DNA of 24,684 nucleotides from a virus, in the IMG/VR virus record IMGVR_UViG_3300009593_000115, positions 1-24,684 of that record; one strand, 5' to 3'. The position numbers and the translations under genes were made by a program. Of this stretch, positions 6,001-22,302 are shown in pieces. The notes under the pieces are model-generated. The model saw nothing but the letters and a program-made list of their open reading frames with translations, was not told the DNA's origin and made no database searches. Position 1 is the stretch's first letter. The number at the start of each line of letters is the position of its first letter.

Positions 6001-9000
6001 GGTTCTCATGGATTAGGACAAACATATAATACTGGGATAACATTTGATGCAAATGCAGATGCACCTGTAGATAAAAATGGCGATGCATATAATCTAATAA
6101 TTGATAATGCAGATTTAATTGCACATGAAGCATATGCAAGGATGATCCTTAATAATGTTGGATTCTTACCACCCACAGGTAATAAGCAAGATTGTATTGA
6201 TGACATTAGAGATTTTGTTGTTGAAATTGCTCATAACGTAGGATTTGGTGGTAATGATAGAGTCTGGGATATGGCAAACTTGTATGTTACAGGTGCTCAT
6301 GTTGCAGGTGAAGAGGATCAAACAATTGAAGCATTTAAGGATGCTACTCAATTGATGATTCAAGCAATGAGAAACGAGAGAATTCTTAAAGTTTCATCTA
6401 ATTCTCTTACTCAAACATTTGATACTAGTATTACTCCTAGTGTAGCATCACCACAAAATAATAAAGTTGCTGATGCAGTTAACTTAATTTCTGCCAACAA
6501 AAATTTCATTGCAGAAGTTGCAATGGGTAGAATGATTGCTCAATACCCTTCATACCAACCTCCTACTGGATACGCACAAAGTGATTGTGTTGATGATTTG
6601 AAGGATATTGTTGATGTAGTTGCACATAATATCAGACAAGGTGGTAATGATCGTACTTGGGACACTGCTAATCTATATGTTGGTGGTGCTGTTCAAGCAA
6701 TTAACACATTTGAGACTGTATATGCTATTGAACAGGCTCGTGATATTATTAAAGAAGTTGCTACTAATGTAACTGTTACTTCTAATAACTATACTTCATT
6801 AACTCAGACAAAGGATACTGATATTACTGATGGTGTTACTAATGGTGATTGCAATACAGTATTAAGTTCTGTTGATACATTGGTGACTATTCTTACCAAT
6901 GCTATTAGTACACCAACATCTCTTGCAAGTGTTACAAGAACTGCTTCAACTTATAAGTGTACAACAGTAGAATCTACTATTAATACTCTTTCTACTATAG
7001 CACAAAATGCTATTACAGATCCTGCAAGTCTTGCTCAAGTAACAAGAACAAGATCTGGTGGTAGATGTAATAATATTAGATCTACCATTGATACACTCTT
7101 TAAGATTGTTACTGATACTATTACTACACCATCATCTCTTGGTAGTGTAACTAGAAATATTTCTAATGGTAAGTGTCAGAATGTTGCTTCAACTATTACA
7201 ACTCTCTTTAGTATACTTACTAATACTATTCAGACAAATAATTATTTGAATAGTATTGAAAGAACTGAATCTCCAAAAGGATTATCTACTGGTAATCCAG
7301 TTAATGCTGATGCAACTACAAATAATACTTACTTATACTTTACATTACCTTCTGGCCGCTATACAACTGCTTATAGTCCAGTAGTTGATGATACTATAAC
7401 TCAGGATAATACATATCCTCAGTGTAATGATGTTGCAAATCAAGTTCGTCAGTATTTTGCTAACATCAATACAATTATTCAGACTGGTTTGGGTGCTGTT
7501 ACTAGAAATCAACCTTCCAACTCTTCTGATTTATCATCTAGAGCAACAGTATTTACTCTTGGTAATTGGACTCCAGGACCACTAACAGGTTCTAATCCTC
7601 ATGAATTAGAAACAGGTACTGTTGTAAGATTGGTTCCAAGACCACGTTACGATAGATCAACAAACAAATATGTTGGAGTTGATAAGCGTAATGTAAGATT
7701 GCCTAATGGATTTGACACTAATACTAAGTATTATGTAATTGCTCCAGGTAGAAATACACAACCAGAAAATTATGCTGGTTCAACAACCTTTAATGGTACT
7801 GATCAAACTAAATTGATGCTTGCAAGCAGTAAGGAAAATGCTGCTGCTGGTATTTACATTCATTCTGCTGAAGTAGATGCAATTCATCCAGATATTGAAA
7901 TTGATATCTATCAGTTTGTTCTTGATGATAAGTATGATCTACATGAGTATAAGTGTAAACTTGATAGTGGTGCTGGTGCTGTACAGGGTGGTATTAAAAC
8001 TGATGTACCACATATTTTTGATGTTCAGAATATTACTGTTGAACCACATAAAGTATTCTTTAGAAAGAATGAGAGTGGTAGTCTACCTATAGTAAATCCT
8101 GCACAGGCTTCTGATCCAGACATTGCAGTAGGTTCTATTATTCGTAGTGATAAGTTCTTCTATGCAAGATACCAGAACTTCAAGGTGTTTACAGTACATA
8201 AGACACATGCTGATGCAATAGCAAATACAAATCCAATTATTTTCCAATCTGGAGCTTATGATTTCACTGTATTCGCAGACAAGCGTGAGTCACCAATGCG
8301 TTATGATCCTACGTTTGCAAATGCAGGAACTACTCCTGTAATTTATGGTAAGTGGTATTTACAGGTTAAGAATGAATCAGAGTCTGGAACTCCAAGTTAT
8401 GATGCTCAGAGTATCTTAGCTAGATTCCATGAATCAACTTATAGTGATACTTCTGGTAATAATAAGACAAATGATTCATGGTATGAAAGACTTAAGGATG
8501 AAAGACCTGCTGATGATCGTATCTATCGTTTACGTTATGTTATTCCTAAGTATCTAAGATCTGTTCGTGATCCTCTTAATGGATTTACCATTAAGATGAG
8601 AAAGGATGATACTAGAAAACTTCTTCCACAGAAATTGATGCTGAAGCCAGTTACTGGTTCTGTTACACAAGCGAAGTTCTATAACACACCTGATAGTGGT
8701 CAAGGAACTGAAATTATTGGATATAATGCTAGTAATTTTGCCGATGTTAATTTAAATCTTGATCTAGAGAAAGCATACGATCCTTATAAGAAGGATACTA
8801 GTGGTACTAGACAATATGCTAAGAGTATTACCACAAAGAATACTTACGTTGATATGACTGTTGAGTCAGCAAAGTTTGTTTCAGGTGGTACTGAGCTAAC
8901 TGTTATTAACCCACGTGTTGAGAATATTGCACTTAAAAATGAGACATTCACAACAGTTGAAATTAATGAACCTCAAGGTGCTGATTTTGTAGAAAATACA

Positions 9001-12000
9001 ACTTCTAATGTAGATGCTGGTTCTAATTCAAATAAAGTAACATGGTCTGGTAATAGTTCTGGGTATGGTTATATTCACGCTGTTATTAATGTACCTAATA
9101 CAACTACATGGCATTTAATTCTTAAGGGTATATCTGGAGATATTAAATATTCTTCAACAGATAACATAAGGTTCTCACAAGGTTCAGCATTTGCTGATCT
9201 AAAAAATTACCCTGACTATGGTAAGTCTCTAGTTCTAAAAGATCTAATTAAAGAAGAATTACCAGAGTATTACTATCGTCAGAATGGTGCTAAGGTTTAT
9301 ACTATTACTCCTGGTGATAGGATTGTTGATGATGCTAACATAGAGTTTTATGTTGAATCAGTACAGGATGTTGGTGAGATTGATGATACATTCTATATCT
9401 TTGATGTAGAAGAAGTTCAGAGACGTATTTTTGACCAACAGGATGGTATTTTCTATATTACTGCTATTCGTGGTAATATGTCACCTTATCCAACAGGTGC
9501 TGGTAATCAGAAGAACTTCCATAAATTTAAGTTCTCTCAACCTGTTAGCAAATTATATCCATTAAATTATAAGAATGATCCTTTATGGTTCAAACAAGTT
9601 GATCCTAATGCTGTTGATCCTCCTGCAACATATTCTGCTGCTGACAACTATGTTCATGGTTTAGTTACTGTTAACGACTTTAAGGGTTCTTCTACTAAGG
9701 AGTCTGTCATTGATATACTTCATTCTGAAGCATTGAAGAATAATACTTATGATGTGACCGTAAACCAATATGATCGTAGCAATAAACTTCAAGCACAAAA
9801 GGGTAATGCTTCTGCTGGATCTGAAGATAGATTGATTCCTATTGCTGGTGATAATACTGTTGTATCTCAACAAAGATTGTATGTTGAATTACGAAGACCG
9901 TCTATAGCAAGAGCTGGTAACCACACATTTGAATACCTTGGTTTTGGTCCAGGTAACTACTCAACTGGTTTCCCTGCTCGTCAGGAAGTATTGCTTAGTG
10001 CAATTCAAGATTTCTATTCACAGTCTAAAAAGCAAGATGGTGGTTTAGTATTCTATACTGGTCTTAACTCTAATGGTGATCTATACATTGGTAATCGTAA
10101 GATTGATGCTATTACTGGTGAGGAAGAATTCCTAGAGAAAGCATCACTACAAGATTCTTCTGATGAAGATGATGCAATCGGTGATCTTGTTACTACATTT
10201 GATACTCCTGTTACGTTTAATGAGTATATTACTGTTAATGGTGGAGAGAATAATGATAAACCAAGTACATTTAATTCTCCAGTTACAATTAATGTAGCCC
10301 CTGAAGTTAGAAATACAACTCTTGGTGATCCTAATAAAGGTTTATTAACTTCACTTAAGATTACATCTAATGTATCAAATACAAAAGATGATATAACTCT
10401 TGATAGAACAGCTCAAACTAAGAATCGTTTAACAAATGGTGACATAATAATTGCTGGTAATAAGGTTGCTTCTTCTATATTTGAATGGAATCCACGTGGT
10501 TCTAATGGTTCTGGACAAGGATATAAGATTCAAACACATTGTGTCGGATCAAGTAATATTGCATCTAACGTAACACCTGATCAAGCTGCTACTTATAGCT
10601 CACTTCAGGCTGTTGGTTATGGTGCTGGTGGAGCTCCTTTAAGTGGTGATATACTACTCAAAGGTTCTGAAGTAGGAAGAAGTGGATCATGGGGTTGGAT
10701 ACTTGCTAGTGCATTTGTAGATGTCACTGGTAATGTTTGGAAACTTACATTTAATAATACTAATACTATTACTGTATCTTATGTAAGTGGTGTTAGCAAT
10801 TCTAATGCGACTCCAGGTGGTGTTGAACCAGGAATGGAAATTAGAATTTCTGGTATAACTGCATTACCAGAGATTAATGGCACATGGATAATCAACACTG
10901 GATTGAGTGCTGGTGGATCTACTATGCAATTCAACATCTCTCCAAATGATGCTATTGCAGCTGGCGATCTATCATTCCCAACTGGAGCAACAATGGAAGT
11001 TGCTGCTTCTGGATGGAAAGAAATTGGTGTTGTTGGTGCTGAGACACTCAGAACAGATACTCAAACAATTGGTCAGTATAAACTTGGTGTTAATACTGTA
11101 GCACGTTCACGTCATACTGCACATGCAAATGCATTTGTTTCTAATGAAACAGATCCACGTGCTAACTTGGATGTTGTTGGTACTACACATATAAGTGGTC
11201 ATTTAATTAATGATTATAATAACACATCTAATGCTAATATTGTTAAGACTGAGACTCCTGTAGATCATGCATTGTTAGTTGGTTTCCAAGGTGCTCAAGG
11301 CAACTTTGATCCAGATGATGCTGCAACATTCAGAGTTTCTACTACTCAGAGTACTCCTGGACAACCTGGCGGTAGGGTTGGTGTTAATGCAACTCTAGTA
11401 GAGATGATCACTAACTTTAATGTTATTGGAACATCTTACTTCTCTAATACTGCCATATTCCAGAACGATATAGCAGTTAATGGTCTTGGTGCTGGTAGTG
11501 CTCGTCATGCTGATATTACAACTACTATTACTGACGGAACATTTAATTTTGTAATGGATACTGGGTTCCTAGGTCTTACAACTGGAACACGTCCTGCACA
11601 AGGTCTTAAGATTGGTGGATCAGTTCAGAATATTGAAATTGGTGACGTAACTCAACTTATACAAGACATTAAGATTGGTAATAAGAGTGTTAATAGTAAC
11701 ATCTATGTTGGTGATACTCCTGATGGTACTGGTAATAATATATCAAGAACTTGGCTTGGTGGTGCATATGAATCTAATGAAGATAATTCATTCATTAATA
11801 TTGGTACTGCCAGCTTTAGAATGGATGGTGATGCATGGTTAGGATTTAGAAGACAGTTTGGTACTGCACGTCTATCTTCTCAAGCATCTAAGATTGAATT
11901 CTTTGCTAATAGTGGTGGTCCATCTATCATTGATTTTGCTACATTTGCATCTGAAATTAATATTGCTGGTTCTGGTGGTAGAACTAAGGTTAACAACCAA

Positions 12001-14778
12001 CTTGAGGTTGTTGCATCTGCTAAGTTCCATGCTGATATTCATCTATGTGGTGGTACATCTGCATTTGAATTTACTGGTACTAGAGGACAATTAGGATCTG
12101 CTATTGCTGCACATACTGCTGGTGGTGGTGCTACACCTCCTAAAGATGTTGACATATTAAATGTTATTACTAAGAGTAGTGGTGAAGATGGATACAATGA
12201 AATTGATGCTTGGGGTGGTAATGAATGGGGTACTTCATATTATCAGAATCCTCAAACAGGTTTAGGTGGTAATCCTATTACTTCACCACAAGATCTTCCT
12301 GCATTGACAGGTGATGAATACTGGTTACCATTACAATCTGCACCAAATAATTATTTCGCAACAAATGACTATATTATCATTAATAGTGCTGTTGAGGCAA
12401 CACCAAGACATCCAGAAATAGTTCAGATTGTTGAATTAACAAGAACTACTGTATTCCCATATGTTCTTAAAGTTAAGCGTCAACCATTTGGTACATTTAC
12501 TGCTGCATTAGATAACCATAAAGATAATACTCCTATCTACAAAGTTGATGTACAGTTTGATGCCACATGGATAACAGATGATCTTGATGATGATAATTCT
12601 GCAACAGATAACATTGACCTAGCAGAATTTGGTGGTGGATTGAATACAGGTGATTATATCATTGTTGATCGTGATCCTGCTACACCAAGTGTAGGTGAAG
12701 TTATTGGAGTTCAACAACTTCTTTCTCTAATAGAACAGAAGTTTAGAGTTTCTAATTGTGATACTCCAGATGTTGACATGTTTGTTGTTAACTCTGTTAC
12801 TGGTGATACTTATATTGGTGGTGACACCATTATGAATGGTGCATTTAGACTTGATGGTGGATGTGATGTTAGACCGAAAGGATCAAGATTTGAAAATGGT
12901 ATTGTAATTACTGGTGATATAGCACCTGATAATGCTACTTCAGGTACAACAACTAAGATTACTGGTATTTCTGATACTTCTAATCTTAGGGTTGGTGATG
13001 TAGTTCATTTAAATACTTACTCAGATAGTCAATCAATCATAGTATATACTGATACTAGGATAACTGAGGTTGATAATGATTCTATTAAACTCAGTAGATT
13101 TATTAATTTACCTGCTGAAGTACTTGATGTCCAGTTTAGGATTAGTAGTAATGAAACTTTTGTTATTAATGATGGTCATGGTGGAAATACATTAGAGTTT
13201 GATACATGTATAGGTTCTTTAGAATTAAATAATCAAAATAGAAGAATTGAAGTAAAGAGAGTTCTTCCTTCTACAGAAACTGTTGCTAATACAGTTGGTA
13301 GATATGAGACATTGACGGATGATATTAGGGTTTATTCTTATTGGTTAGATCCTAAGACAATAAATCCAAGTAATTCTACTACTGATGCTGGTCCAAATAC
13401 TACATTAACAGCATTACCAGTAGCAGGTACTGGATCAATGCTTGGAGAAGTACATCTTATAGTTGAAAGTCTTGGTAGAGAAGATGGTAAGTTTGCTACT
13501 GATGACTTAATTGTTGTTGGAGTAACAGCAGATATTGTTGGTAAAGGTCTAACAGGTCAGAAGTTTGAGATAATGAAGGTAGTTGCTGTTGAGGATACTA
13601 CTAAGAAAATCAGAGCAATTCCTGCACAAGAAGGGACAACAGCACGTCCATTAACTGATTATCCAGCAGTTACTTCTTCTGTAATGAGAATACTCAAACA
13701 CCCTGAGACATCTGGTATTACGGATATTGCTAATAGAACTAGAGTTCTTAGTGGGGTTAATACAGAATATGTTTCATTAATTATTGATAGGGGATATATT
13801 GTACAGCAGAAGCAAGATTATACTGGTTTCTTGAGATTTGTTGATACTAGAAATATTGCTGGTAAACTTGATGATCAATTGTTCTTTGTTGTTGATAGTT
13901 TATTTGGTAATGCTCATCAATTAAACATGAATGAGTTTACTCATGTTGGAACATTAGGTGGATCTGGTGATCTTACAATTGGTAGAAATTTTGAAATGAT
14001 TGGTGGTGGTCTAACCATCTATGATTCAGTTAGAAATACCAAATTATTATCATTTACCAATGATGATGGTCACGCAGATCATTTAGGTTTGCTTTATCTA
14101 CAAGGTGACTTAACTGCCAGAGGTAATATGAGCTGGTACTCTGCTGGTGATCCAGAGTCAATAGGTGCTTATGGTGTATTACCAACATTATCAGTTAATT
14201 CACTTGGTGAAGTAGTTGCTGGAACTAGTGTTACAATTCGTGGTGAAGGATCTACAGCACCAGGTGCTGTTCCGCAACTTTCTTTAACAAATCTTGGTGT
14301 TAATGGTGTATACACATATGACATTAACAAAGATGCATCAATTAATGCATATGGCATTGATAATTTTATAACTAGAACAGGTGGTACTCATACAAGATAC
14401 ATAGCAACTGGTGCAGAAGAATCAGCAACATACTTGATTCCAAATATAACTTATATGGTTAATGTTGAAACAAGTGATGAATTTGTTGTTTATCTACCTG
14501 CTAATCCAATTACAGGTGATACAGTAAATATTATTGATGTTGGTGGTAACCTAACATATAATACTTCACTTATTGTTAGAGCACAAGGTATTGGAACAAG
14601 AGTTCAGGGTGATAGTACAGGAACAATATTGGGTGGATTAACTGTTCAGTATCCATCTGGTGAGTTGGTAGTACAGACTCCTAATGCTGCATTTACTTTA
14701 ATATACCTTGGTGGTGTGGATAGTAATGGTGGAGTTGTTGGAGGTTCTGCTTCAGGTTGGTGGCTCAAGGAGGTGTAA
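1..14778 (+). CDS. Giant virion structural / tail fibre-like protein (5' end outside window)
   Basis: The reading frame is open from base 1, so the gene starts upstream; the ATG at 121 is an internal Met. 4,925 residues are visible (residue 1 = codon at base 1), ending in TAA. Order of parts: residues ~1-90 contain a GGDMSITNSNSNFG segment typical of beta-helix-like phage structural proteins; ~198-2280 hold a helical repeat array interrupted by beta-repeats; ~2283-2503 hold short Cys-starting helical repeats; ~2840-3450 contain RLRYVIPKYL, LLPQKLMLKPV, TFEYLGFGPGNYSTG and NGDLYIGNRKIDAITGEEE, motifs I recognise from virion proteins of marine T4-like phages; the rest is beta-rich and ends GWWLKEV, like many tail fibre C-termini. 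The likely role is an extended tail or fibre component, possibly host-contacting; the virion location is inferred. No catalytic motif was seen. The first 60 codons use far more C-ending codons than the rest. Confidence 0.88.
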   Translation, partial: HTKGDAFWKDDWRNFHVRASEDAFIQCVSIFAVGFADHFLMESGGDMSITNSNSNFGNTSLHAIGHKGYAFNQDKGGYITDIVPPQEVVDSVGNTTKQSYYTLDVYASNDISNHTKVFLGDDEAYNPSSRPAATIGGYRVGAKTDDKLFVKLQPRSAGANTEYHATISPSGFKKFTAAADILNPSGVTINNQTLDAADRIEANKDFIAHEAYDYILAKYPTLKIKEGITIEKCRRDVGYLIDATVQDLRLGGNVNTIQAAESYFVASQLSYITGELNETLEGYNYARDVALAAMRNFTYLRNGVSTSNGSAIVNIGDTSGVVEGMTVADYDPSQFTSGKLNSNAQRPSTPVIPDNTFVKKVIDSTSIELGDNTQNEEKRVASDRHGNARELILANKDFIANEAYERMLLDFPNYTPSTGYTLATSKVKCLNDLGKVVEAVAENTGYGGNAETWDAAYHYESGAVVDLEDKKEETLAGFNYAKDMAIQVMRKENIFVFGSHGLTQSSSTASDPITDDPSPELVSDRNGDARNLILSNKNLIAHEAVERMVLNSSTQQYTPTNATYDPATGDLTLTSTAHGLSAATSHTVTGAVYTPTDGDLVLTVPSHGFTNGQKVLIKDNSIVLNCAMDSGSTEHSYPRSSDPVSGKWLTISNKSTDQFTVNVGTSPLIKYTPTTGTTYNPDTGILTLKIGNHNLRGSTSHKPSDADYNPTTGVMVLTIANHGLSIGDKVKINDNSLTFSCLEDNNGTNHSYPRPGDPVSGEWLEISNITKDTFAVTVLTTTPSTNVTDHRFEGALDNAVIVAGESVKIAENGLKFTCAKDNDATEHSYPRAAGPNGPDPFYNTAIPIESATVDTITLIVGKANDATAGAHTFVEATNGALETGGSYTHNYVSAVGSGLLAQNDSVRIDYDALKFTCGMDNNATQHSYPRISDPAASNILPVIASTPANFTVNVGKTLDVSHNVTDAIYTPGTGDLTLTLNDHNLIKGQTIRIADESLTFTCSKDSNQTPHSYPRNETIDLTPSDAGYDPVSGVLTFTLANHGLEKDDMIQVVQGSLTFTCKEDDHQSPHQYPRPGDPLGSRYTPVFNVTTDTFDIQVLDNAPSTNTSLHICTAIAPNAINRFKDRGWRNALEITKVGSSFHTITDASYTPKDGILEITVPNHGLNSDSRVKLTRDSLTFKCAMDNYASEHSYPRESDPADGKWLDISDVTSDTFKVNVGLAGSDQKLTPTDATYDPSSGELVLTVGSHNLSEGDGIVIDNESLSFTCAMDGNQVPQSYPRAGVDKASSRSLHITSTTDTTISVNVGNAGTNKTFSPSAVSYNEQTGEMVLTIGQHGISVGSDITLKNDSLAFTCDKDNNITTHKYPRPGTDPYATKSIRVDAVGSTKHTVTDALYTPVDGKMIVTVAGHGFSNNDYVKFADDSIRFSCTLDGNATNKAYPRNDFDQNSGRWLQVSNVQTDTFEVNVGVSSDTSLHKFEDAVDDGLEKQDGTVTINVGSAEATAFEPTSADYDPTTGDMVLTMAGHGLSNGQHIRVAKESLIFTCEEDNNATEHSYPRATDKLMLDGSAIVKDVTIDTVTIGVLQSWPSTNTTDHVFVGLNKFLTAGDASYNAATGYLTITSAGHGLLVGERVKLNNDSIRMTCAMDGNVSEKTYPRATDPISGKFVPIFNVTTDTFDIQVGKSLLVHHTPSDASYNPTTGLMELTIGAHNYTAGDNIKIAKESLIFTCGQDANATEHAYPRSSDPFYDKAFVVQGVTATTITVQVLDTIPSSNTTTHAFVTALPNAITAGGNYSHSFVDATPNGITRAVVLSGDQYTHTFVPLSSTADAVEYSPQSVHEFVSAKTDCVKHYPDQAHQFVRGATNGLQKQGGTITVNVGASPVGEQHTHLFTGADTGAVTSGGLYDHTFVSAVNNSVHKIFSVAGNRSYHNVDCIDDVRDLLEAIADNVAYGGNDKTWDAAYSYKTGAHVAGEETETNVVFEHAKEMAAQVIKNQKILSIGSHGLGQTYNTGITFDANADAPVDKNGDAYNLIIDNADLIAHEAYARMILNNVGFLPPTGNKQDCIDDIRDFVVEIAHNVGFGGNDRVWDMANLYVTGAHVAGEEDQTIEAFKDATQLMIQAMRNERILKVSSNSLTQTFDTSITPSVASPQNNKVADAVNLISANKNFIAEVAMGRMIAQYPSYQPPTGYAQSDCVDDLKDIVDVVAHNIRQGGNDRTWDTANLYVGGAVQAINTFETVYAIEQARDIIKEVATNVTVTSNNYTSLTQTKDTDITDGVTNGDCNTVLSSVDTLVTILTNAISTPTSLASVTRTASTYKCTTVESTINTLSTIAQNAITDPASLAQVTRTRSGGRCNNIRSTIDTLFKIVTDTITTPSSLGSVTRNISNGKCQNVASTITTLFSILTNTIQTNNYLNSIERTESPKGLSTGNPVNADATTNNTYLYFTLPSGRYTTAYSPVVDDTITQDNTYPQCNDVANQVRQYFANINTIIQTGLGAVTRNQPSNSSDLSSRATVFTLGNWTPGPLTGSNPHELETGTVVRLVPRPRYDRSTNKYVGVDKRNVRLPNGFDTNTKYYVIAPGRNTQPENYAGSTTFNGTDQTKLMLASSKENAAAGIYIHSAEVDAIHPDIEIDIYQFVLDDKYDLHEYKCKLDSGAGAVQGGIKTDVPHIFDVQNITVEPHKVFFRKNESGSLPIVNPAQASDPDIAVGSIIRSDKFFYARYQNFKVFTVHKTHADAIANTNPIIFQSGAYDFTVFADKRESPMRYDPTFANAGTTPVIYGKWYLQVKNESESGTPSYDAQSILARFHESTYSDTSGNNKTNDSWYERLKDERPADDRIYRLRYVIPKYLRSVRDPLNGFTIKMRKDDTRKLLPQKLMLKPVTGSVTQAKFYNTPDSGQGTEIIGYNASNFADVNLNLDLEKAYDPYKKDTSGTRQYAKSITTKNTYVDMTVESAKFVSGGTELTVINPRVENIALKNETFTTVEINEPQGADFVENTTSNVDAGSNSNKVTWSGNSSGYGYIHAVINVPNTTTWHLILKGISGDIKYSSTDNIRFSQGSAFADLKNYPDYGKSLVLKDLIKEELPEYYYRQNGAKVYTITPGDRIVDDANIEFYVESVQDVGEIDDTFYIFDVEEVQRRIFDQQDGIFYITAIRGNMSPYPTGAGNQKNFHKFKFSQPVSKLYPLNYKNDPLWFKQVDPNAVDPPATYSAADNYVHGLVTVNDFKGSSTKESVIDILHSEALKNNTYDVTVNQYDRSNKLQAQKGNASAGSEDRLIPIAGDNTVVSQQRLYVELRRPSIARAGNHTFEYLGFGPGNYSTGFPARQEVLLSAIQDFYSQSKKQDGGLVFYTGLNSNGDLYIGNRKIDAITGEEEFLEKASLQDSSDEDDAIGDLVTTFDTPVTFNEYITVNGGENNDKPSTFNSPVTINVAPEVRNTTLGDPNKGLLTSLKITSNVSNTKDDITLDRTAQTKNRLTNGDIIIAGNKVASSIFEWNPRGSNGSGQGYKIQTHCVGSSNIASNVTPDQAATYSSLQAVGYGAGGAPLSGDILLKGSEVGRSGSWGWILASAFVDVTGNVWKLTFNNTNTITVSYVSGVSNSNATPGGVEPGMEIRISGITALPEINGTWIINTGLSAGGSTMQFNISPNDAIAAGDLSFPTGATMEVAASGWKEIGVVGAETLRTDTQTIGQYKLGVNTVARSRHTAHANAFVSNETDPRANLDVVGTTHISGHLINDYNNTSNANIVKTETPVDHALLVGFQGAQGNFDPDDAATFRVSTTQSTPGQPGGRVGVNATLVEMITNFNVIGTSYFSNTAIFQNDIAVNGLGAGSARHADITTTITDGTFNFVMDTGFLGLTTGTRPAQGLKIGGSVQNIEIGDVTQLIQDIKIGNKSVNSNIYVGDTPDGTGNNISRTWLGGAYESNEDNSFINIGTASFRMDGDAWLGFRRQFGTARLSSQASKIEFFANSGGPSIIDFATFASEINIAGSGGRTKVNNQLEVVASAKFHADIHLCGGTSAFEFTGTRGQLGSAIAAHTAGGGATPPKDVDILNVITKSSGEDGYNEIDAWGGNEWGTSYYQNPQTGLGGNPITSPQDLPALTGDEYWLPLQSAPNNYFATNDYIIINSAVEATPRHPEIVQIVELTRTTVFPYVLKVKRQPFGTFTAALDNHKDNTPIYKVDVQFDATWITDDLDDDNSATDNIDLAEFGGGLNTGDYIIVDRDPATPSVGEVIGVQQLLSLIEQKFRVSNCDTPDVDMFVVNSVTGDTYIGGDTIMNGAFRLDGGCDVRPKGSRFENGIVITGDIAPDNATSGTTTKITGISDTSNLRVGDVVHLNTYSDSQSIIVYTDTRITEVDNDSIKLSRFINLPAEVLDVQFRISSNETFVINDGHGGNTLEFDTCIGSLELNNQNRRIEVKRVLPSTETVANTVGRYETLTDDIRVYSYWLDPKTINPSNSTTDAGPNTTLTALPVAGTGSMLGEVHLIVESLGREDGKFATDDLIVVGVTADIVGKGLTGQKFEIMKVVAVEDTTKKIRAIPAQEGTTARPLTDYPAVTSSVMRILKHPETSGITDIANRTRVLSGVNTEYVSLIIDRGYIVQQKQDYTGFLRFVDTRNIAGKLDDQLFFVVDSLFGNAHQLNMNEFTHVGTLGGSGDLTIGRNFEMIGGGLTIYDSVRNTKLLSFTNDDGHADHLGLLYLQGDLTARGNMSWYSAGDPESIGAYGVLPTLSVNSLGEVVAGTSVTIRGEGSTAPGAVPQLSLTNLGVNGVYTYDINKDASINAYGIDNFITRTGGTHTRYIATGAEESATYLIPNITYMVNVETSDEFVVYLPANPITGDTVNIIDVGGNLTYNTSLIVRAQGIGTRVQGDSTGTILGGLTVQYPSGELVVQTPNAAFTLIYLGGVDSNGGVVGGSASGWWLKEV
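592..1677 (+). repeat. Helical repeat array, units 1, 2 and first half of unit 3 (within giant gene)
   Basis: Protein-level repeat of about 115-125 residues. Each unit opens with a D.(N/H)G.A..LI..NK.(F/L)IA.EA..RM segment, continues through C..D(L/I)...(V/I).A.A.N, then a GGN..TWDAA motif, and ends with an amphipathic segment near AMQ(V/A)MR. Unit 1 begins about 592, unit 2 about 1147 and unit 3 about 1570. Unit 3 stops after its first helix (AHEAVERMVLNS); its second half is found about 4.1 kb downstream. The pattern suggests alpha-helical bundles separated by short strands; the fold is inferred. Confidence 0.8.
1678..5781 (+). repeat. Beta-repeat block with 13 YPR motifs, inserted in helical unit 3
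   Basis: Thirteen copies of a segment matching FTC..D.N...HSYPR were counted, spaced about 60-120 residues apart. A full unit starts with (Y)(T/N/D)P.(T/D)G.(L/M).LT and (H)G(L/F)..G..(V/I).(I/L), runs through the Cys-Asp-YPR segment, and ends with a DTF.V.V strand. Full unit starts lie near 1774, 2119, 2902, 3079, 3442, 3700, 3961, 4183, 4531, 4828 and 5083. Units around 2428 and 2722 lack the first half; short unit starts at 1687 and 2032 lack the YPR half. Linkers include PSTN.T.H.F and Y.H.FV.A motifs. The first half resembles the HG...GD.V modules of phage tail proteins that are often annotated as E1 FCCH-like; that assignment is from memory. Confidence 0.85.
5782..6834 (+). repeat. Helical repeat array, second half of unit 3 and units 4-5
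   Basis: The segment resumes with DCIDDVRDLLEAIADN and GGNDKTWDAA at about 5797, exactly the part missing from unit 3 at 1570-1677. Units 4 (about 6070-6420) and 5 (about 6457-6834) are continuous: in unit 4 the RM helix is joined to the CIDDIRD helix by only about 16 residues. That continuity shows where the beta block is inserted in unit 3. Confidence 0.8.
6847..7515 (+). repeat. Five short Cys-starting helical repeats (within giant gene)
   Basis: Four consecutive protein repeats of about 35-40 residues follow the pattern C..(V/I).S(T/S)(I/V)(D/T/N)TL..I....I..P.SL..VTR. A fifth, more diverged copy (CNDVANQVRQYF to GAVTRN) lies at about 7423-7515 after a roughly 50-residue spacer. Each unit has one Cys near its start and a VTR or IER end. 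Heptad-like hydrophobic spacing suggests helical hairpins or a trimeric coiled segment; this is inferred from the pattern only. Confidence 0.75.
14767..14774 (+). promoter_or_regulatory. Strong ribosome binding site fixing a TTG start
   Basis: AAGGAGGT lies inside the last codons of the giant gene, 6 bases before TTG at 14781. It is far too close to the in-frame ATG at 14757 (which it follows) to serve that codon, so it supports initiation at TTG, two bases after the upstream TAA. Confidence 0.75.
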
Positions 14779-14780
14779 TA

Positions 14781-16214
14781 TTGGCACATTATAATCGTAT
14801 TAAATCACAAAAGATTGCACCTATTGGTACAATCATGGCATGGGCAGGTAGTTCTTTAAATATTGATTCATTAGAAGGAATACCTTCTGGATGGATTATA
14901 TGTAATGCTACTAATCAAAGTTTACTTGCTGCTGATTATCCTATCCTTGCTAGGATAATTGGAAATACATATGGACCATTTTCTGACAATGCTTCTTTTA
15001 CTCTAGGAGTAAATTATGGTATTGTTAATCCATATCCATATAATAAAGATGTTACGAGAGGTCATGTTGATACCTTTCAAATACCTAATTTAAATCAACG
15101 TCCTTTAGTTGATATTGAATCTACTAGGATAGGTTCTCTTGATTCTGATTCTTATTATGCTACAGGAGATTCTAGATATAATGATCTTGTAGATATTGGT
15201 AAATATATTAGTAAAAATGGTACAGAAGGAACAGAAGCAAAGGTTCTTAATAAGAGTAATGTTAGTATTACTTTCCAAGTTGAAGCTGCTGATAATTTAG
15301 CAGGTAGAATAACTGGAATTGTTATGGATGATCCTATTTACTATACCACAGTTCATACTTTACCTAGAAAATTAGGTATTGATCATACCAAAGATCATGC
15401 TCATAGAGCTGCTAGTGATAATGATGTTGATCAGATTTGGACAACTGTTAGGGATGGAAGTTATGCTTTAGAATTCCAACCACCCCTTGTCCAAAGAGGA
15501 CCAACTGATGCTCAAACAACATCAGCTTCATTGACGGGAAATAGAGGTGGTGATTCTTTTGCTCATAGATTTCTACCAGGAACTTTAGATATTACATGGA
15601 GTAGTGAACAAGATCAAACTTTAGTTAGTGGTTCGTCAAAACAGAATATTGCTAATGTTGCTGCAAAACAATTAGTACCACAACCCATAACTGGTGGTAG
15701 AGCAGTGGATCAGTGTGCTGGTTGTGTTGATAGTTATACTGATGATAACAGTGCTGTTAGTGCTATACAACAGAGTGCTCATGTCGGATCATTTCCACCA
15801 CCTGGATATTATGGTGGTAGAAAGAATTACTATGCATCACCAGATATTCCTGATGCTCATAGAGGATCTGGTATGGGGAATGATTATGTTGACGATATGG
15901 TATATGATCCTAGTACTGAAAGTCAACCAGTAAATACAAATGGACCTTTTGATCCTGATACAAATACTGGTAATACATACAGTACAACATTAAATCATGA
16001 AGCAGAAAGATGGGCTGATTTATCATTACAAGCACACAGACATGAAGCAATGGAGGTAACAATGGGGTCAGGATTAAAAATACCAGGAACAGTATTGGTA
16101 AATAATATTCAAACTGGAACTACAGATCCATTTGATATCGCTAGTGCATTAACAGTTAATGTCAATTCCAATACTCCTTCATTAACAATGATATACATTA
16201 TGAGGGCATTCTAA
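14781..16214 (+). CDS. Phage tail collar domain fibre protein 1 (477 aa, TTG start)
   Basis: The N-terminus reads MAHYNRIKSQKIAPIGTI, matching the MA..YNR start of the next gene, which favours the TTG at 14781 over the ATG at 14757; the resulting 477 residues also match the 479 of its neighbour. A Phage Tail Collar-type motif is visible at residues ~35-65 (SGWIIC with Cys41, then DYPILARIIG.TYG), with the paired FQIPNLNQR motif around Pro102 replacing the usual F.LPDLRGR. Two HxH motifs occur (His206/His208 and His419/His421); such motifs bind metal in T4 gp37 and gp12-type fibres. A CAGC pair lies at about 15717-15728. The C-terminus LTMIYIMRAF is typical of collar fibres ending Y(I/L)I(K/R). 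Likely a trimeric short tail fibre or distal adhesin. The stop overlaps the next ATG (TAATG). Confidence 0.85.
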   Translation: MAHYNRIKSQKIAPIGTIMAWAGSSLNIDSLEGIPSGWIICNATNQSLLAADYPILARIIGNTYGPFSDNASFTLGVNYGIVNPYPYNKDVTRGHVDTFQIPNLNQRPLVDIESTRIGSLDSDSYYATGDSRYNDLVDIGKYISKNGTEGTEAKVLNKSNVSITFQVEAADNLAGRITGIVMDDPIYYTTVHTLPRKLGIDHTKDHAHRAASDNDVDQIWTTVRDGSYALEFQPPLVQRGPTDAQTTSASLTGNRGGDSFAHRFLPGTLDITWSSEQDQTLVSGSSKQNIANVAAKQLVPQPITGGRAVDQCAGCVDSYTDDNSAVSAIQQSAHVGSFPPPGYYGGRKNYYASPDIPDAHRGSGMGNDYVDDMVYDPSTESQPVNTNGPFDPDTNTGNTYSTTLNHEAERWADLSLQAHRHEAMEVTMGSGLKIPGTVLVNNIQTGTTDPFDIASALTVNVNSNTPSLTMIYIMRAF

Positions 16215-17653
16215 TGGCGGTATTTTATAACAGAGAAAAAGGAAAGCATGGTTCATTAACGGGAACTATTATCAATTTTCCAAAACGTATAGTAAGTGAT
16301 GATCCTGCTAGTTCTGTTAATATGGAGTTAATACCACCAGGATATCTTACTTGTGATGGTAGAATTTTATCAGCAACAGATTATCCAATGCTTGCAATGG
16401 TTCTTGGTGTTGGAGATGAATGTAAGTTTAGGAAAGAAGATCAAGCGTTGTCTGATACTCAATTTCAGCTTCCAGATCTTAGGATGAAACATATTAGAGC
16501 AACTTCATCTGCTAATATAGGACAATATGTTGACTTGGTTGTTACTAATAAGAATGTTGATCCTGAACGTGATGTTATTAAATCTGGTGTTGGGTTAGAT
16601 GTTATTCAGAATATTCCTAGTCCTTATGAGTTAACATATGATGGATCATTTTATGTTCCACCACAAGAACTTCCTTTAGTTGGTGAACCTAGGTTTGCTG
16701 TTGATAGTGGTAACTACACATATTATGCTGAAGTAAGTGAGAAGCAATATCAACCACATATGCATAGGTCAAATACTTTTAGAGCAAGACAATTTGATAA
16801 AAATGGAAATCATTTTTCAGGTAGACAAACTAACTCAACTAACACAAAAAGTAGTTTAAGTGTTTGTCTGTGGTGGGCAGTTGCTGAACAGGATGCGTGT
16901 TATTGGTACTGGACTGGTCTTTCCACCCAACATAGTTCAAATAGACCAGGACATAATGGAGCTCCTGCTAACTATTATAATTCTTATGGTGCTTGTTGGA
17001 ATGGTGTTTGTAATTCATTTGTAACACAACAATATTGTTTATGGCCAGATGAAGTAACTTGTCCTAACATGGCATTAGAGAATGAATATGTTCAAGTTAT
17101 TTTAGACGATGGTGGTCAAGGTAGTAGGAAGTGTAACCACACTAATAAAGATCCTGCACAGCCACCTGCTGGAAATTTTACCAATATTTTTGGTGAACAT
17201 ACTTTACCAAGTAATACAAATGTTTATTATGAACCAACATTCACAACTGAGTGTATTTGTAGGAATATTCCTTTGATTGGGTGGTGTTGGGCTGGTACTG
17301 ATGGACCTACTGTTGTTGACCCATTTAGTAAAACTGCCGAAACTGATTTACAACAATACGACAAACCAAAAAATCTTCCATTTGCTCCATATGATGAAAA
17401 TGTTACTATTAGTCCAACGGCTGTTCAAAATATAACATCGGATACTGGACTTACAGGTGATAGTAATAATCACAGACATATTCTTGAAATGGATACCGAT
17501 GAACCTCATACATATATTATGAGAACTAGAGCATCTAGTGCAAGAGCAGATTCTGGATTGCAGTCTAGTATTACTATTTCAAAGAATGATGAACCAAAAG
17601 CTGATAAATATATACAGCCTTACATTGTCCAAGAGTACTTGATAAAGACCTGA
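16214..17653 (+). CDS. Phage tail collar domain fibre protein 2, with Cys/Trp-rich insert (479 aa)
   Basis: Paralogue of the preceding gene. The N-terminus is MAVFYNREKGKHGSLTGTI; the collar motif PPGYLTCDG (Cys47) is followed by DYPMLAMVLG and a clear FQLPDLR (Pro87). HxH motifs lie at His182/His184 and His420/His422, the second almost at the same distance from the C-terminus as in the first paralogue (57 against 56 residues). Between them, residues about 215-375 carry 10 Cys and 8 Trp, including VCLWW, ACYWYW, ECIC and GWCW, with no counterpart in the first paralogue. The C-terminus is YLIKT. GAGGG at 16203-16207 is a plausible ribosome site, and starts and stops overlap on both sides (TAATG, TGATG), suggesting translational coupling. 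Likely a tail fibre or adhesin; receptor unknown. Confidence 0.85.
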   Translation: MAVFYNREKGKHGSLTGTIINFPKRIVSDDPASSVNMELIPPGYLTCDGRILSATDYPMLAMVLGVGDECKFRKEDQALSDTQFQLPDLRMKHIRATSSANIGQYVDLVVTNKNVDPERDVIKSGVGLDVIQNIPSPYELTYDGSFYVPPQELPLVGEPRFAVDSGNYTYYAEVSEKQYQPHMHRSNTFRARQFDKNGNHFSGRQTNSTNTKSSLSVCLWWAVAEQDACYWYWTGLSTQHSSNRPGHNGAPANYYNSYGACWNGVCNSFVTQQYCLWPDEVTCPNMALENEYVQVILDDGGQGSRKCNHTNKDPAQPPAGNFTNIFGEHTLPSNTNVYYEPTFTTECICRNIPLIGWCWAGTDGPTVVDPFSKTAETDLQQYDKPKNLPFAPYDENVTISPTAVQNITSDTGLTGDSNNHRHILEMDTDEPHTYIMRTRASSARADSGLQSSITISKNDEPKADKYIQPYIVQEYLIKT

Positions 17654-20600
17654 TGGCATTTTACAGACCTAACAATACCATAGACAGGAATGGAGTCCAA
17701 TTAACTGAGACTCATACACCTAATTGGTACAGTGATAAATCTGGATCTTATACTCAGATAGGTGCTATTGTACCTACATTAGTTAATGCTTATACTGATA
17801 CCACTGATGTTCCAGATCAATCTTGGACATCTATTGAGTATGATCATCATTATGCTCAAAGAGGTTTCTTGTATTGTGATGGTGCTGAATATAAAATTAA
17901 AGATTATCCATTATTATATGATATTATACGTAATGATTATTTAAGTAATACAGATTTATTAACTGCAAATTCTTATATATGGGAAACTCCTGGTACAGAA
18001 GGAACGATATTTAGAACATTTATTAATCAAGCTGACTTATATGCAGAGATTTATAAAGATACATTTGTACATCCTAATGGTACTACAATAAGGTCACGTT
18101 TCTATCCAAATGAATCTATATTAAGATTTGTTGGTGCTATGAAAGATTATCCAGATGGAAGTACAACACCACCAACATTTGTGCCAGATACAGATTATAA
18201 GTTAGAATATAATGAATCTTATCAGAATTTAGCATCAAGAAATGATACTAATGTTTATAGATTCCTTGTTGGTGATGCTGCTACTAGTGAAACAACAACA
18301 ACAGTTGCATGGTTATTAAATTCTACAGCTTTAATTAGTGTGCCTGGTGAAGATAATCCAATAATAACAGAACAATATTACGGTACAGTTCCTGAATGTG
18401 AGCCATCAAGTTCAACACCTGCCGTTTGTTATCCATCAGGATATGATAGTTATGGTGATGCAGAGAATTGGAGTCCAGATTTAAATTGGGGAAATATCGC
18501 TGGAATACCTGAGAGTGTTGATGTTGTGAGTTGGGAAATATGTTTAGAGAATTTATCAAAAGATACTTCAACTGATAATTATATCCAGTGGCATATAAAG
18601 AATATTCCAGCAAATGTAACAGCTATAGCTGCTAATGGAGCAGTTCCAACAGGTGCTGCGATTCAATCTAATACAGTTGACCAGTCTAGTATTCTTCCAG
18701 GATACGGACAGTTTAAAACATGGGTTAGAGATAATGGATATTCAGGTCCACAACCTGATGACGGAGAGAAACATCTTTATAGATTTCATGTAGTATGTAA
18801 TCTTAGCAATAATCAAACTTTAGTTAATCATTTAGATTTTACAGCAGGTGCAGGGGCTCTTGTAACTCCACCAGCAAATTCTACTCCAGAGTACACTGAT
18901 AATTTTGTTATTGATGGAGTCAGTGGCAATATTACTGAAACTGCTTTTAATGTTGAGATGTCAACTTTGGCTGATCATCCTAAAATTAGAATCAGAAAAG
19001 CATTTAGATGGGAGGATTATCCACATTTTGTTGGTAAATTTAAAGTACCTGATTATAGAGATAGAAAGATTGTAGGGTATGGAGAAGGTGTTGAAGGAGC
19101 AGGAACACCCCTTGTTGGAAATAGACCAACGATTAAAGTTGGTGATGTTGGTGGTGAATGGGAGATTAGTAGAGATAAAATTGATGATCCTCAAGAATTT
19201 TTCACTATCAGTGATGTATTAACAACAGGTTATGATGATGTTAATGCAACAATTTCTCCATATTTGACAGGATCAAAGAAAATTACAATTGGACCTATTG
19301 TTGATTATATTGCAAACAGACCACCAGAGCATAGACATCAGTTATTAACGAGTCAACCAGATGAAACACGTCAGTCTTCAATGGGTGGTATTGATAGTTT
19401 TACTAGTGGTTATCAGAGAATAAAGGGAAATGTTGAGACTTTTGTACCATCCACATCTGATGGATTTCCATTAGGACATTCACATGGTCTTGTGGAAAAT
19501 GCACCACAAAGTTCTTTAACTGCAACATATGGTAACTCTGAGGGTATAGGTGATAAGATTGAAGATACCAATAATCCTGGTTGTTTTCTTTATAAGATTA
19601 CAGAACCACCAACTCAACCTCTTACATCTATTACAAGTGATGGTACTAAATTAACTGTTGTTACAGTAGAGGATCATGGATTTTCTATTGGTGATTGGAT
19701 TGTAATTGCTGGAGCTGGAACAGGATATGATGGTAATTGGCAAGTTGAATCTGGTGGATTTAGTGCTAATGGATTTGAAATAATTCCAACAGATGCTGAT
19801 GGTACTAATATAGCACCAGTAGCAGGTACTGGTACAGCAGGTGCGACAGTTAGACAAGCGGCTGGATATTTTGAAGATGTTACAGGTATACCAGATCCAA
19901 AAGTATGGGTAGTTGATGATAATGCTAAGATTGGTGGTAAACCAATATATTCATATGATCCAGGTGATTATGAAGAAAAATATACTCATGAACAAACATC
20001 TCCTGGAAATTTTACCAAAAGTGCTGAAGAAGCAACAGAAAGAGTAAGAATATATGATGTTACCTTAGTTTCTCCAGGTGGAGGAGGAGCTAGTTATAGT
20101 AATAATGGTAGTAATGGTGGTACTGCTGCTATCACATTTATGTTGGATAATGTACAATATACTGTTAGTTGTAGTGGTGGCAGTGGAGGAACAGCAGGTA
20201 TATCAGGTGGAGATGGTGGAGATGGTGGAACAGTAAGTATTCCTGCTGCATTATTAACAAATAGTAAATTCCAAGTAACATTTAATAATGCTGGTAATGA
20301 TGGAGGAGATGCACCGTCTGGTGGTAGCAGTGCAAATCCTGCTGGTGGAAATGGTTGGACTGGAGCAGGTAATTCTGATTATGAATGTGGTGCTGGAGGA
20401 GATGGTGGATATAGTTCAACTCCTAGTTCTGGATCTTGGAACAAGACTTATACTAGCAATGGTAGTTACACTCCATCTCAAGATTCCCAATTAGATGCTA
20501 ATTCAACTATTGATTCTATTGAATTAGATGTTTCGGGTGGTGCTGGAGGAGATGGAAACCAAACTACTTCATCTGGTTGTGATGTTAACTATAAACCAGA

Positions 20601-22302
20601 GAGTATTGGTGATGGATTAGGTGGTGATGGTGGACGTGGTAGAAGAATAAAAGTAACAACAGGAGATTTGGGAGAATATAATTTTTTAATTGGTACTAAA
20701 GGTGGTGATGGATTTGACAATGCATGGGGACAGAATCAGGTAGAAGTTGCTAATAATAACGTAGGAACTGGTGCTGCTTCTGGTGGAACTGGTGGTGCTG
20801 GTGCATTAGGTGCTGGTGCAACTGCTGGTGCTGGTGGTGGTGCAACAGGTGTTTATGTAACAGGTGCTCTTGGTTACATCGTTGGAGCTGGTGGAGGCGG
20901 CGGTGGTGGTGCTGGTGGAGGTGGTAATAACTGGGGAGGTATTGAAGACCTATGTTGGACAGGAGGTCCAGGTCAGAATCCTGCATCTGCTGCTTACAGT
21001 TTAACTACTGTTGGATTTGATGGTGGTGTTGGTGGAGAAGCAAGAGGATGTACCGCTGGAGGCGGTGGCGGTGGCGGCGGTGGAGCTGGACAAGGTGGTG
21101 ATGGTGGTGCTGGTGGTGATGCTGGTGCTGGTCACAGTGCTACTGGTTCTGGAACAGGAGGTTATGCTGGTCGTTGTGCTTGGAAAAGTGGTGCTGCTAA
21201 CTTTGTATTTGAGGGAGAAGGAGCAACAGGTGATGGGTATGTAATTTTTAAAGTTAATTATTCAGGTAATGTAACTAATCCCTCTGGTGGAGGTGGTGGT
21301 TCTGGTGCTAGTGTTAGTTTTCAAATACAAGGTGAAAATATACAAACTTCTATGAGTGGAGTACTTGGATCACCTGGACAACCTGGTGCTGGTGGTGTTG
21401 GTTCTGATGAATTAGCAACTGCTGGAGAAGAAGGATATATTCAAGTTGTAGCTAATGCTATAATACCTGGTGCAGAAACAGTTCTTGATTATACAACTCC
21501 AGCAGGACGTGTGTATGATGTACCTGGATATCCAGATAGTCCAACATGGCCAACAACTGCTGGTACTGTTGGTGGTGCTGTATGGCATAGTTCTAGTGAC
21601 GATGTAAATATATTTCCAGCAGGTACTGGTGCTGGAAATAGTGGTGGTTTTGTTGCTGCTTCAACTCAAGCAACTAAACATGTTCTCTTTAGAGGTGATG
21701 ATGATAGATGGATACAAATAGGTCCATTAAATATGAAAGCAGCAGAGAAGTTAGTATTTAATGTTATTAAAGGTAATGGTAGCAATGGTGGAGAATCTCC
21801 TGGTGGTGGACAAGATTTACAATTGTTCTATAAAACTAATCCTGCACCTGAAATAACTCCAACACTTATACAACAAATTGCCCCAACAAGTGTTAGTGCT
21901 AGTGGTTGGGATGAGTATGAAATAGATTTAGATGAAAGTCATCCTGCTAGACAAGGTAGTGTATATCTTTATATTATGCAGGATAGGTCAGGTAGTATGG
22001 ATTCTGATGATTGGGGATTAGCAGAATTTGGTATAGTATATGGTGAAGTTAGTAATAGGGTATTCACACCAGCATCTAATGCTACATTACCAGGAAATCA
22101 AGGATCATGTGGTCCTAATAGTGGTATAGATGTTGTGAAAAAGACGATAACAGCATCACAATCTAATATTAGATTTGATCAGGGTACTCTTACTTTATCA
22201 ACATCAACACCAATATCTGTATCTGGTACTGCAACTGTTGAAGATGTTATACCATTAATTACTAGGTATCATAGAGCTAAATACCTTATAAAAGCATTCT
22301 AA
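17653..22302 (+). CDS. Large multidomain tail collar / glycine-rich adhesin protein with PEBP-like domain (1549 aa)
   Basis: Starts within TGATG. The collar domain is split: GFLYCDG (Cys75) and DYPLLYDII at residues ~71-92, then FKVPDYRDRKIVGYGEG around Pro466. The intervening ~390 residues carry a beta-rich stretch and a PEBP/YbhB-like domain at ~257-398. HxH motifs lie at His560/His562 and His609/His611. At ~660-720 is a DHGFSIGDWIVIAG module like those in the giant gene. Residues ~807-1260 are very glycine-rich, with long GGGG runs and the elements VTLVSPGGGGA and DGYVIFKVNY seen in phage glycine-rich domains. Residues ~1335-1470 look like a beta jelly-roll (FYKTN, WDEYEIDLDE, LYIMQDRSG, DDWGLAEFGI), possibly reelin-repeat- or lectin-like. 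The C-terminus YLIKAF matches collar fibres. Likely the distal receptor-binding tail protein; specificity cannot be read from sequence. Confidence 0.85.
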   Translation: MAFYRPNNTIDRNGVQLTETHTPNWYSDKSGSYTQIGAIVPTLVNAYTDTTDVPDQSWTSIEYDHHYAQRGFLYCDGAEYKIKDYPLLYDIIRNDYLSNTDLLTANSYIWETPGTEGTIFRTFINQADLYAEIYKDTFVHPNGTTIRSRFYPNESILRFVGAMKDYPDGSTTPPTFVPDTDYKLEYNESYQNLASRNDTNVYRFLVGDAATSETTTTVAWLLNSTALISVPGEDNPIITEQYYGTVPECEPSSSTPAVCYPSGYDSYGDAENWSPDLNWGNIAGIPESVDVVSWEICLENLSKDTSTDNYIQWHIKNIPANVTAIAANGAVPTGAAIQSNTVDQSSILPGYGQFKTWVRDNGYSGPQPDDGEKHLYRFHVVCNLSNNQTLVNHLDFTAGAGALVTPPANSTPEYTDNFVIDGVSGNITETAFNVEMSTLADHPKIRIRKAFRWEDYPHFVGKFKVPDYRDRKIVGYGEGVEGAGTPLVGNRPTIKVGDVGGEWEISRDKIDDPQEFFTISDVLTTGYDDVNATISPYLTGSKKITIGPIVDYIANRPPEHRHQLLTSQPDETRQSSMGGIDSFTSGYQRIKGNVETFVPSTSDGFPLGHSHGLVENAPQSSLTATYGNSEGIGDKIEDTNNPGCFLYKITEPPTQPLTSITSDGTKLTVVTVEDHGFSIGDWIVIAGAGTGYDGNWQVESGGFSANGFEIIPTDADGTNIAPVAGTGTAGATVRQAAGYFEDVTGIPDPKVWVVDDNAKIGGKPIYSYDPGDYEEKYTHEQTSPGNFTKSAEEATERVRIYDVTLVSPGGGGASYSNNGSNGGTAAITFMLDNVQYTVSCSGGSGGTAGISGGDGGDGGTVSIPAALLTNSKFQVTFNNAGNDGGDAPSGGSSANPAGGNGWTGAGNSDYECGAGGDGGYSSTPSSGSWNKTYTSNGSYTPSQDSQLDANSTIDSIELDVSGGAGGDGNQTTSSGCDVNYKPESIGDGLGGDGGRGRRIKVTTGDLGEYNFLIGTKGGDGFDNAWGQNQVEVANNNVGTGAASGGTGGAGALGAGATAGAGGGATGVYVTGALGYIVGAGGGGGGGAGGGGNNWGGIEDLCWTGGPGQNPASAAYSLTTVGFDGGVGGEARGCTAGGGGGGGGGAGQGGDGGAGGDAGAGHSATGSGTGGYAGRCAWKSGAANFVFEGEGATGDGYVIFKVNYSGNVTNPSGGGGGSGASVSFQIQGENIQTSMSGVLGSPGQPGAGGVGSDELATAGEEGYIQVVANAIIPGAETVLDYTTPAGRVYDVPGYPDSPTWPTTAGTVGGAVWHSSSDDVNIFPAGTGAGNSGGFVAASTQATKHVLFRGDDDRWIQIGPLNMKAAEKLVFNVIKGNGSNGGESPGGGQDLQLFYKTNPAPEITPTLIQQIAPTSVSASGWDEYEIDLDESHPARQGSVYLYIMQDRSGSMDSDDWGLAEFGIVYGEVSNRVFTPASNATLPGNQGSCGPNSGIDVVKKTITASQSNIRFDQGTLTLSTSTPISVSGTATVEDVIPLITRYHRAKYLIKAF
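18421..18846 (+). other. PEBP / YbhB-YbcL-like domain embedded in collar protein 3
   Basis: Ordered family landmarks are visible: SPDLNW (residue 274 on), a hydrophobic strand where D.D.P normally lies, QWHIKNIP at 312-319 in place of HW...NIP, a polar linker, GYSGPQP at 362-368 in place of GYGGP.PP, and G.KHLYRFHV with His374 in place of PH.Y.F. The DPDAP motif and the first HW histidine are absent, so the usual anion/ligand pocket is probably degenerate. The domain is likely structural or carbohydrate/lipid-contacting; its function is unknown. Confidence 0.7.
20071..21430 (+). repeat. Polyglycine-rich region of collar protein 3
   Basis: Long runs of GGT and GGA codons, with local GGC clusters near 20898 and 21060, encode Gly-rich stretches broken by short beta elements and Asp, Ala and Ser. 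Known Gly-rich phage adhesins, such as gp38 of phage S16, form sandwiches of polyglycine II helices with variable loops; that this region does so is inference. Confidence 0.75.

Follow-up and report, generated by a model that had tools for sequence, protein, structure and literature searches.

PEBP family members (PF01161; YbhB 1fjj/1vi3, YbcL 1fux, Rv2140c 4beg) are free-standing and in cells are usually small soluble binding proteins, with reported ligands including phosphorylated headgroups, lipids and nucleotides. Domain insertion in tail proteins is a known way to change phage host contact, and decoration domains such as the Ig-like ones are exchangeable beta-rich domains grafted onto tail proteins of the virion. 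The locus described here is comparable in these respects and differs in that the grafted domain has a PEBP fold. A PEBP is not known as a virion module, and a search of full-text literature, in which subscription papers are sparsely covered, returned no report of one in a virion. The closest described tail proteins are the T4 gp12-type short tail fibre, carrying the PF07484 collar, and a virion structural protein of the Kyanoviridae (SRSM4_211 of Synechococcus phage S-RSM4 and gp221 of S-WAM2; phrog_30655).

The analyzed stretch of DNA (the window) is a 24,684-base IMG/VR virus fragment, IMGVR_UViG_3300009593_000115, recovered as a single metagenomic contig. Its tail genes, and the features within the fourth, are:

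1-14778: giant fibre ORF (ORF1)
14757-16214: collar protein of 485 aa
16214-17653: collar protein of 479 aa
17653..22302, + strand: tail protein of 1549 aa bearing the PEBP insert
17848..17940, + strand: N-terminal collar half, residues 66-96, profile positions 9-39 of PF07484
17947..18276, + strand: first insert segment (X1), residues 99-208; beta-rich, and akin to the insert found in two relatives that lack the PEBP (L012 and L013)
18304..18852, + strand: PEBP-fold domain, residues 218-400, with the Pfam core at 18457-18819 (residues 269-389)
18868..19026, + strand: segment X2 or linker, residues 406-458, returning to the collar according to the alignment
19027..19107, + strand: C-terminal collar half (FKVPDYRDRKIVGYGEGVEG)
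19324..19488, + strand: two HxH motifs (PEHRH and GHSHG), their histidines invariant in four homologues
after ORF 17653-22302: tail assembly chaperone, then a 118-aa protein

This order of fibre genes and tail assembly chaperone was also found in S-RSM4 and S-WAM2, with one additional gene in between in S-RSM4, and cyanophages gave the best matches for the window tail proteins. An 83-kb contig carrying the same domain encoded a CpeT-like antenna gene (phrog_488) and a baseplate gp6 with 71% identity to that of S-RSM4, and family matches to psbA/psbD were absent from the 21 carrier fragments searched. Portal and major capsid families likewise gave no match on the contigs, but the controls gave none either. 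Because of the neighboring genes and the CpeT gene on one carrier contig, the best reading is that the window and the other carriers derive from Kyanoviridae-like marine cyanophages, with a putative cyanobacterial host.

The 1549-aa protein is arranged as an N-terminal region, a split collar with its insert, the two HxH motifs, and a Gly-rich C-terminal part. It matched phrog_30655 at E 5e-75 and phrog_4924 (short tail fiber) at 5e-18, and its homologues SRSM4_211 and gp221, both annotated as “virion structural protein,” share its gene position, collar, HxH motifs, and Gly-rich C-terminal part. The collar of the S-RSM4 homologue is uninterrupted, unlike that of the window protein, and the S-WAM2 homologue has a different collar insert; no match to the Pfam PBP family was obtained in either genome. 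In common with T4 gp12-type fibres are both collar halves, the downstream HxH motifs, and the tail gene neighborhood, while the window protein differs by approximately 345 residues in the collar loop. By analogy with gp12 and gp37, the HxH stretch is presumably comparable to gp12-like receptor-binding regions. The C-terminal part is very Gly-rich between 20000 and 21700, as in S-RSM4 and S-WAM2, and contains one short tandem repeat at 21094-21132.

The original prediction placed a PEBP/YbhB-like domain within a collar split by about 390 residues, and the comparison with intact collars bears out the split. The motif GFLYCDG..DYPLLYDII occupies residues 71-92 and ends at about 17940, and its partner FKVPDYRDRKIVGYG occupies residues 463-477 from 19039, such that the distance from YCDG to VPD is 391 residues compared to 46 in the S-RSM4-type homologue. 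The same motifs are separated by approximately 60 residues in ORF 14757-16214 and 40 in ORF 16214-17653, in agreement with the 40-60 given for these two paralogues in that prediction. Against PF07484 the score was 26.6 bits for the N-terminal half and 35.0 bits, over profile positions 9-55, once the halves were joined; the C-terminal half scored alone gave no match. Uninterrupted collars were also present in further homologues (L021-L023 and L042), supporting the view that the collar of the window protein is, at the sequence level, truly split by an insert.

Within the insert, assignment of residues 218-400 to the PEBP (YbhB/YbcL) fold is firm. PF01161 matched the full ORF by hmmscan at E 1.1e-6 (29.5 bits, residues 269-389) and the insert alone at E 5.5e-8, and the window scores of 29.5-33.7 bits exceeded the curated cut-off of 24 bits. 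A PDB search with the single sequence gave a weak YbhB match (E 1.4), while a profile of 18 phage relatives retrieved Escherichia coli YbcL at E 1e-5, followed by HP0218, YbhB, and Rv2140c at E 0.03-0.1. The domain modeled alone from six sequences (pLDDT 69.7, pTM 0.71) gave two Foldseek matches below 0.001, both YbhB, and in a second fold comparison the top six structures were PEBPs with Z from 13.1 to 10.7 (13.1 for YbcL and CT736, 12.7 for YbhB) compared to 7.7 for the best non-PEBP fold. PEBPs also ranked first for a longer model (Z 8.5), and the viral structure library BFVD gave no match at E < 0.001. The profile search and YbhB comparison proposed with the original prediction thus upheld the domain call, as they did the nested arrangement along with the comparative evidence, but the prediction was incomplete: the PEBP covers only approximately 190 of the ~345 inserted residues, a second inserted segment was missed, and so was the recurrence of the domain elsewhere in tail proteins, in four or more other contexts.

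The second segment, X, flanks the PEBP on both sides. Strands are predicted in X1, with pLDDT 71-85 over most of its length. The PEBP-less relatives L012 and L013 carry an insert of approximately 140 residues at the same point of the collar; an X1 HMM built from PEBP-bearing sequences detected both at E 5e-4, a better score than any of 3000 shuffles gave, and the X2 flank HPxxRIRKAF..DYP is present in both. The same HMM gave no match in L014. Since the X1 match and the C-terminal flank are both common to L012 and L013, the most likely origin, moderately supported, is a double nesting in which an X insert was in the collar loop first and the PEBP was added inside it. Two points weigh against the overall explanation proposed below: the homology of X1 to the PEBP-less relatives is modest (E 5e-4), and the nested model, a 469-residue prediction of collar plus insert that bears on whether the collar halves fold together, is weak (pTM 0.43) and does not resolve the collar contacts.

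Among relatives, this loop holds no insert, a GxGY segment of approximately 90 aa, X alone, or approximately 730 aa of other sequence, and it is an insertion hot spot. Inserts of the GxGY type (~90 aa), of ~180 aa, and of ~730 aa were observed in L015, L029, L032, L062-L072, and L073-L085, and the ~730-aa inserts of L029 and L032 had no Pfam match. An additional 150-230 residues or so separate the PEBP from the C-terminal collar half in L008 (5371-6000), L091-L094, and L096. The additional segment of L008 had no Pfam match, and an F5/8C-like identity suggested by eye for the additional modules of L008 and L029 was likewise unsupported by Pfam.

A survey of marine phages for the same insertion was also proposed at the outset. 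One pattern-limited scan of IMG/VR identified 59 contigs besides the window with a tail-borne PEBP relative, 48 of them in the collar loop of the same gene type and 11 in other tail-protein positions. Both collar halves were on the contig in 46 of the 48 (the N-terminal half of L143 being read by eye). The other positions comprised the loop of another collar type, GxGY (L161), the region just after the collar of proteins of the 485-aa type (L165 and L167), giant fibre proteins like ORF1 (L163, L164, and L169-L171), and other fibre-like proteins (L162, L166, and L168). The PBP profile scored above its cut-off in most relatives, including all seven scanned copies from other contexts (40-51 bits). 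In the domain tree the collar-X copies formed one group (85/88), and L161 was placed with L162 and L166, copies from unrelated proteins; its cassette shares 66% identity with that of L162. Because the tree sets L161 with these copies and apart from the collar-X group, the domain is likely to have entered collar loops separately at least twice, with several contexts overall. No match to the insert was found by tblastn against sequenced phages, no plasmid match was found, and bacterial genomes searched with the 18-sequence profile under one search pattern yielded no relative. The gut “phage” MT835538 was rejected as a tail relative, as it encodes a free-standing ordinary PEBP with DPD intact beside bacterial-looking genes.

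The phage domains share with the PEBP family the fold, NxSPxLxW, the Trp of the HW strand, the GYxGPxP loop, and often the His of HxYxF, but differ in the pocket. In 50 distinct phage sequences scored against YbhB, the first Asp of DPD was replaced throughout by Leu (43), Ile (5), or Met (2), while the second position was Asp in 34 and Asn in 16. The His of the HW strand was retained in 22, with Leu (12), Gln (9, including the window), Asn (5), or Cys (2) in the remainder; its Trp was kept in 50/50 and followed by His in 31/50. GY.G of the GYxGPxP loop was present in all 50 and its P in 49, the second pocket His of HRYxF in 39, and its Tyr in 48, and the Asn of NxS was invariant. The claim that the DPD and HW residues were lost consequently held for the first Asp (50/50) and for the window His, replaced by Gln, but not for the Trp. 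Since the Trp never varies and the GYxGPxP loop hardly does, the pocket appears remodeled rather than erased, and the domain is filed as a PEBP-fold homologue set apart from the canonical ligand-binding PEBPs because the first Asp of DPDxP is replaced in 50/50.

In the proposed mechanism, a marine cyanophage resembling the Kyanoviridae would use ORF 17653-22302 to make a gp12-like protein, either a short tail fibre or an adhesin, whose collar loop took up insert X and then probably a PEBP-fold domain within X. Were the two termini of each insert adjacent, the collar could still fold, and the PEBP, presumably displayed on the virion, would project sideways from the fibre tip in three copies per trimer. 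With its remodeled pocket it would most likely make contact with the host surface, as a module that tail fibre genes exchange in the manner of other decoration domains. As the domain sits on a gp12-like fibre and recurs in unrelated tail proteins, a role as an exchangeable side domain contacting the host surface is fairly probable, and reuse of the fold for receptor contact, as originally suggested, is plausible; none of the 50 phage sequences retains the first Asp, which weakens the phosphate-binding part of that suggestion. The broader proposal, that in marine cyanophages the PEBP fold is a portable receptor-contact cassette, with a phage-specific remodeled pocket, that is transferred from one tail-fibre gene to another and also enters collar loops, is offered tentatively and, if true, would give a widespread fold an undescribed role. 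The family represents a cellular binding fold repurposed with its pocket rebuilt, and it offers a defined, expressible domain of approximately 190 residues for probing the little-known receptors of marine cyanophages. Segment dN/dS in four pairs gave no consistent signal of host-driven selection, because the pairs disagree: the PEBP exceeded the collar halves in non-synonymous divergence for the window versus L006 and for L091 versus L092, and did not for L007/L090 and L009/L010.

A passive spacer or stabilizer without ligand, in a loop that tolerates any compact domain with adjacent ends, would account for the very different inserts held by the same loop in relatives and for the absence of the ligand Asp in 50/50; it is nevertheless unlikely, since the invariance of GYxG, Trp, and the Asn of NxS over deep divergence and the recurrence of the domain in other tail proteins suggest a shared function. 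Binding of a small ligand in the virion (a phosphorylated headgroup, lipid, or nucleotide, by analogy with cellular PEBPs) would fit the conserved GYxGxP loop and Trp and the second pocket His kept in 39/50, but is rather improbable given the Leu, Ile, or Met at the first Asp in every sequence and a first pocket His in just 22/50. A generic FN3/Ig-like beta-sandwich with PEBP motifs by chance has in its favor that FN3-type folds come next in the structural list (Z 7-7.7) and is refuted, at very low probability, by the independent sequence profile matches and the clear Z gap. Fusion of an unrelated gene to the tail ORF by an assembly or frameshift artefact, conceivable for one metagenomic contig, is refuted as well, with a negligible probability, as many independent contigs from different samples have the same architecture and the frame of ORF 17653-22302 is open without stops.

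Besides the PEBP receptor-contact module proposed above, a separate observation concerns the giant fibre ORF. Residues 150-200 of ORF1 (window 568-720) matched the Pfam Phycobilisome family PF00502 at E 2.1e-8 (34.7 bits, cut-off 22.2), and ORF1 also matched phycoerythrin alpha chains at E 0.0015, with the Cys of its KCxxDV motif kept in alignment with KCLRDV of phycoerythrin alpha. Similar segments recur along ORF1, starting near window positions 1150, 1573, 6073, and 6463, and the Phycobilisome-like segment appears to be another cellular fold, the second one carried by this tail.
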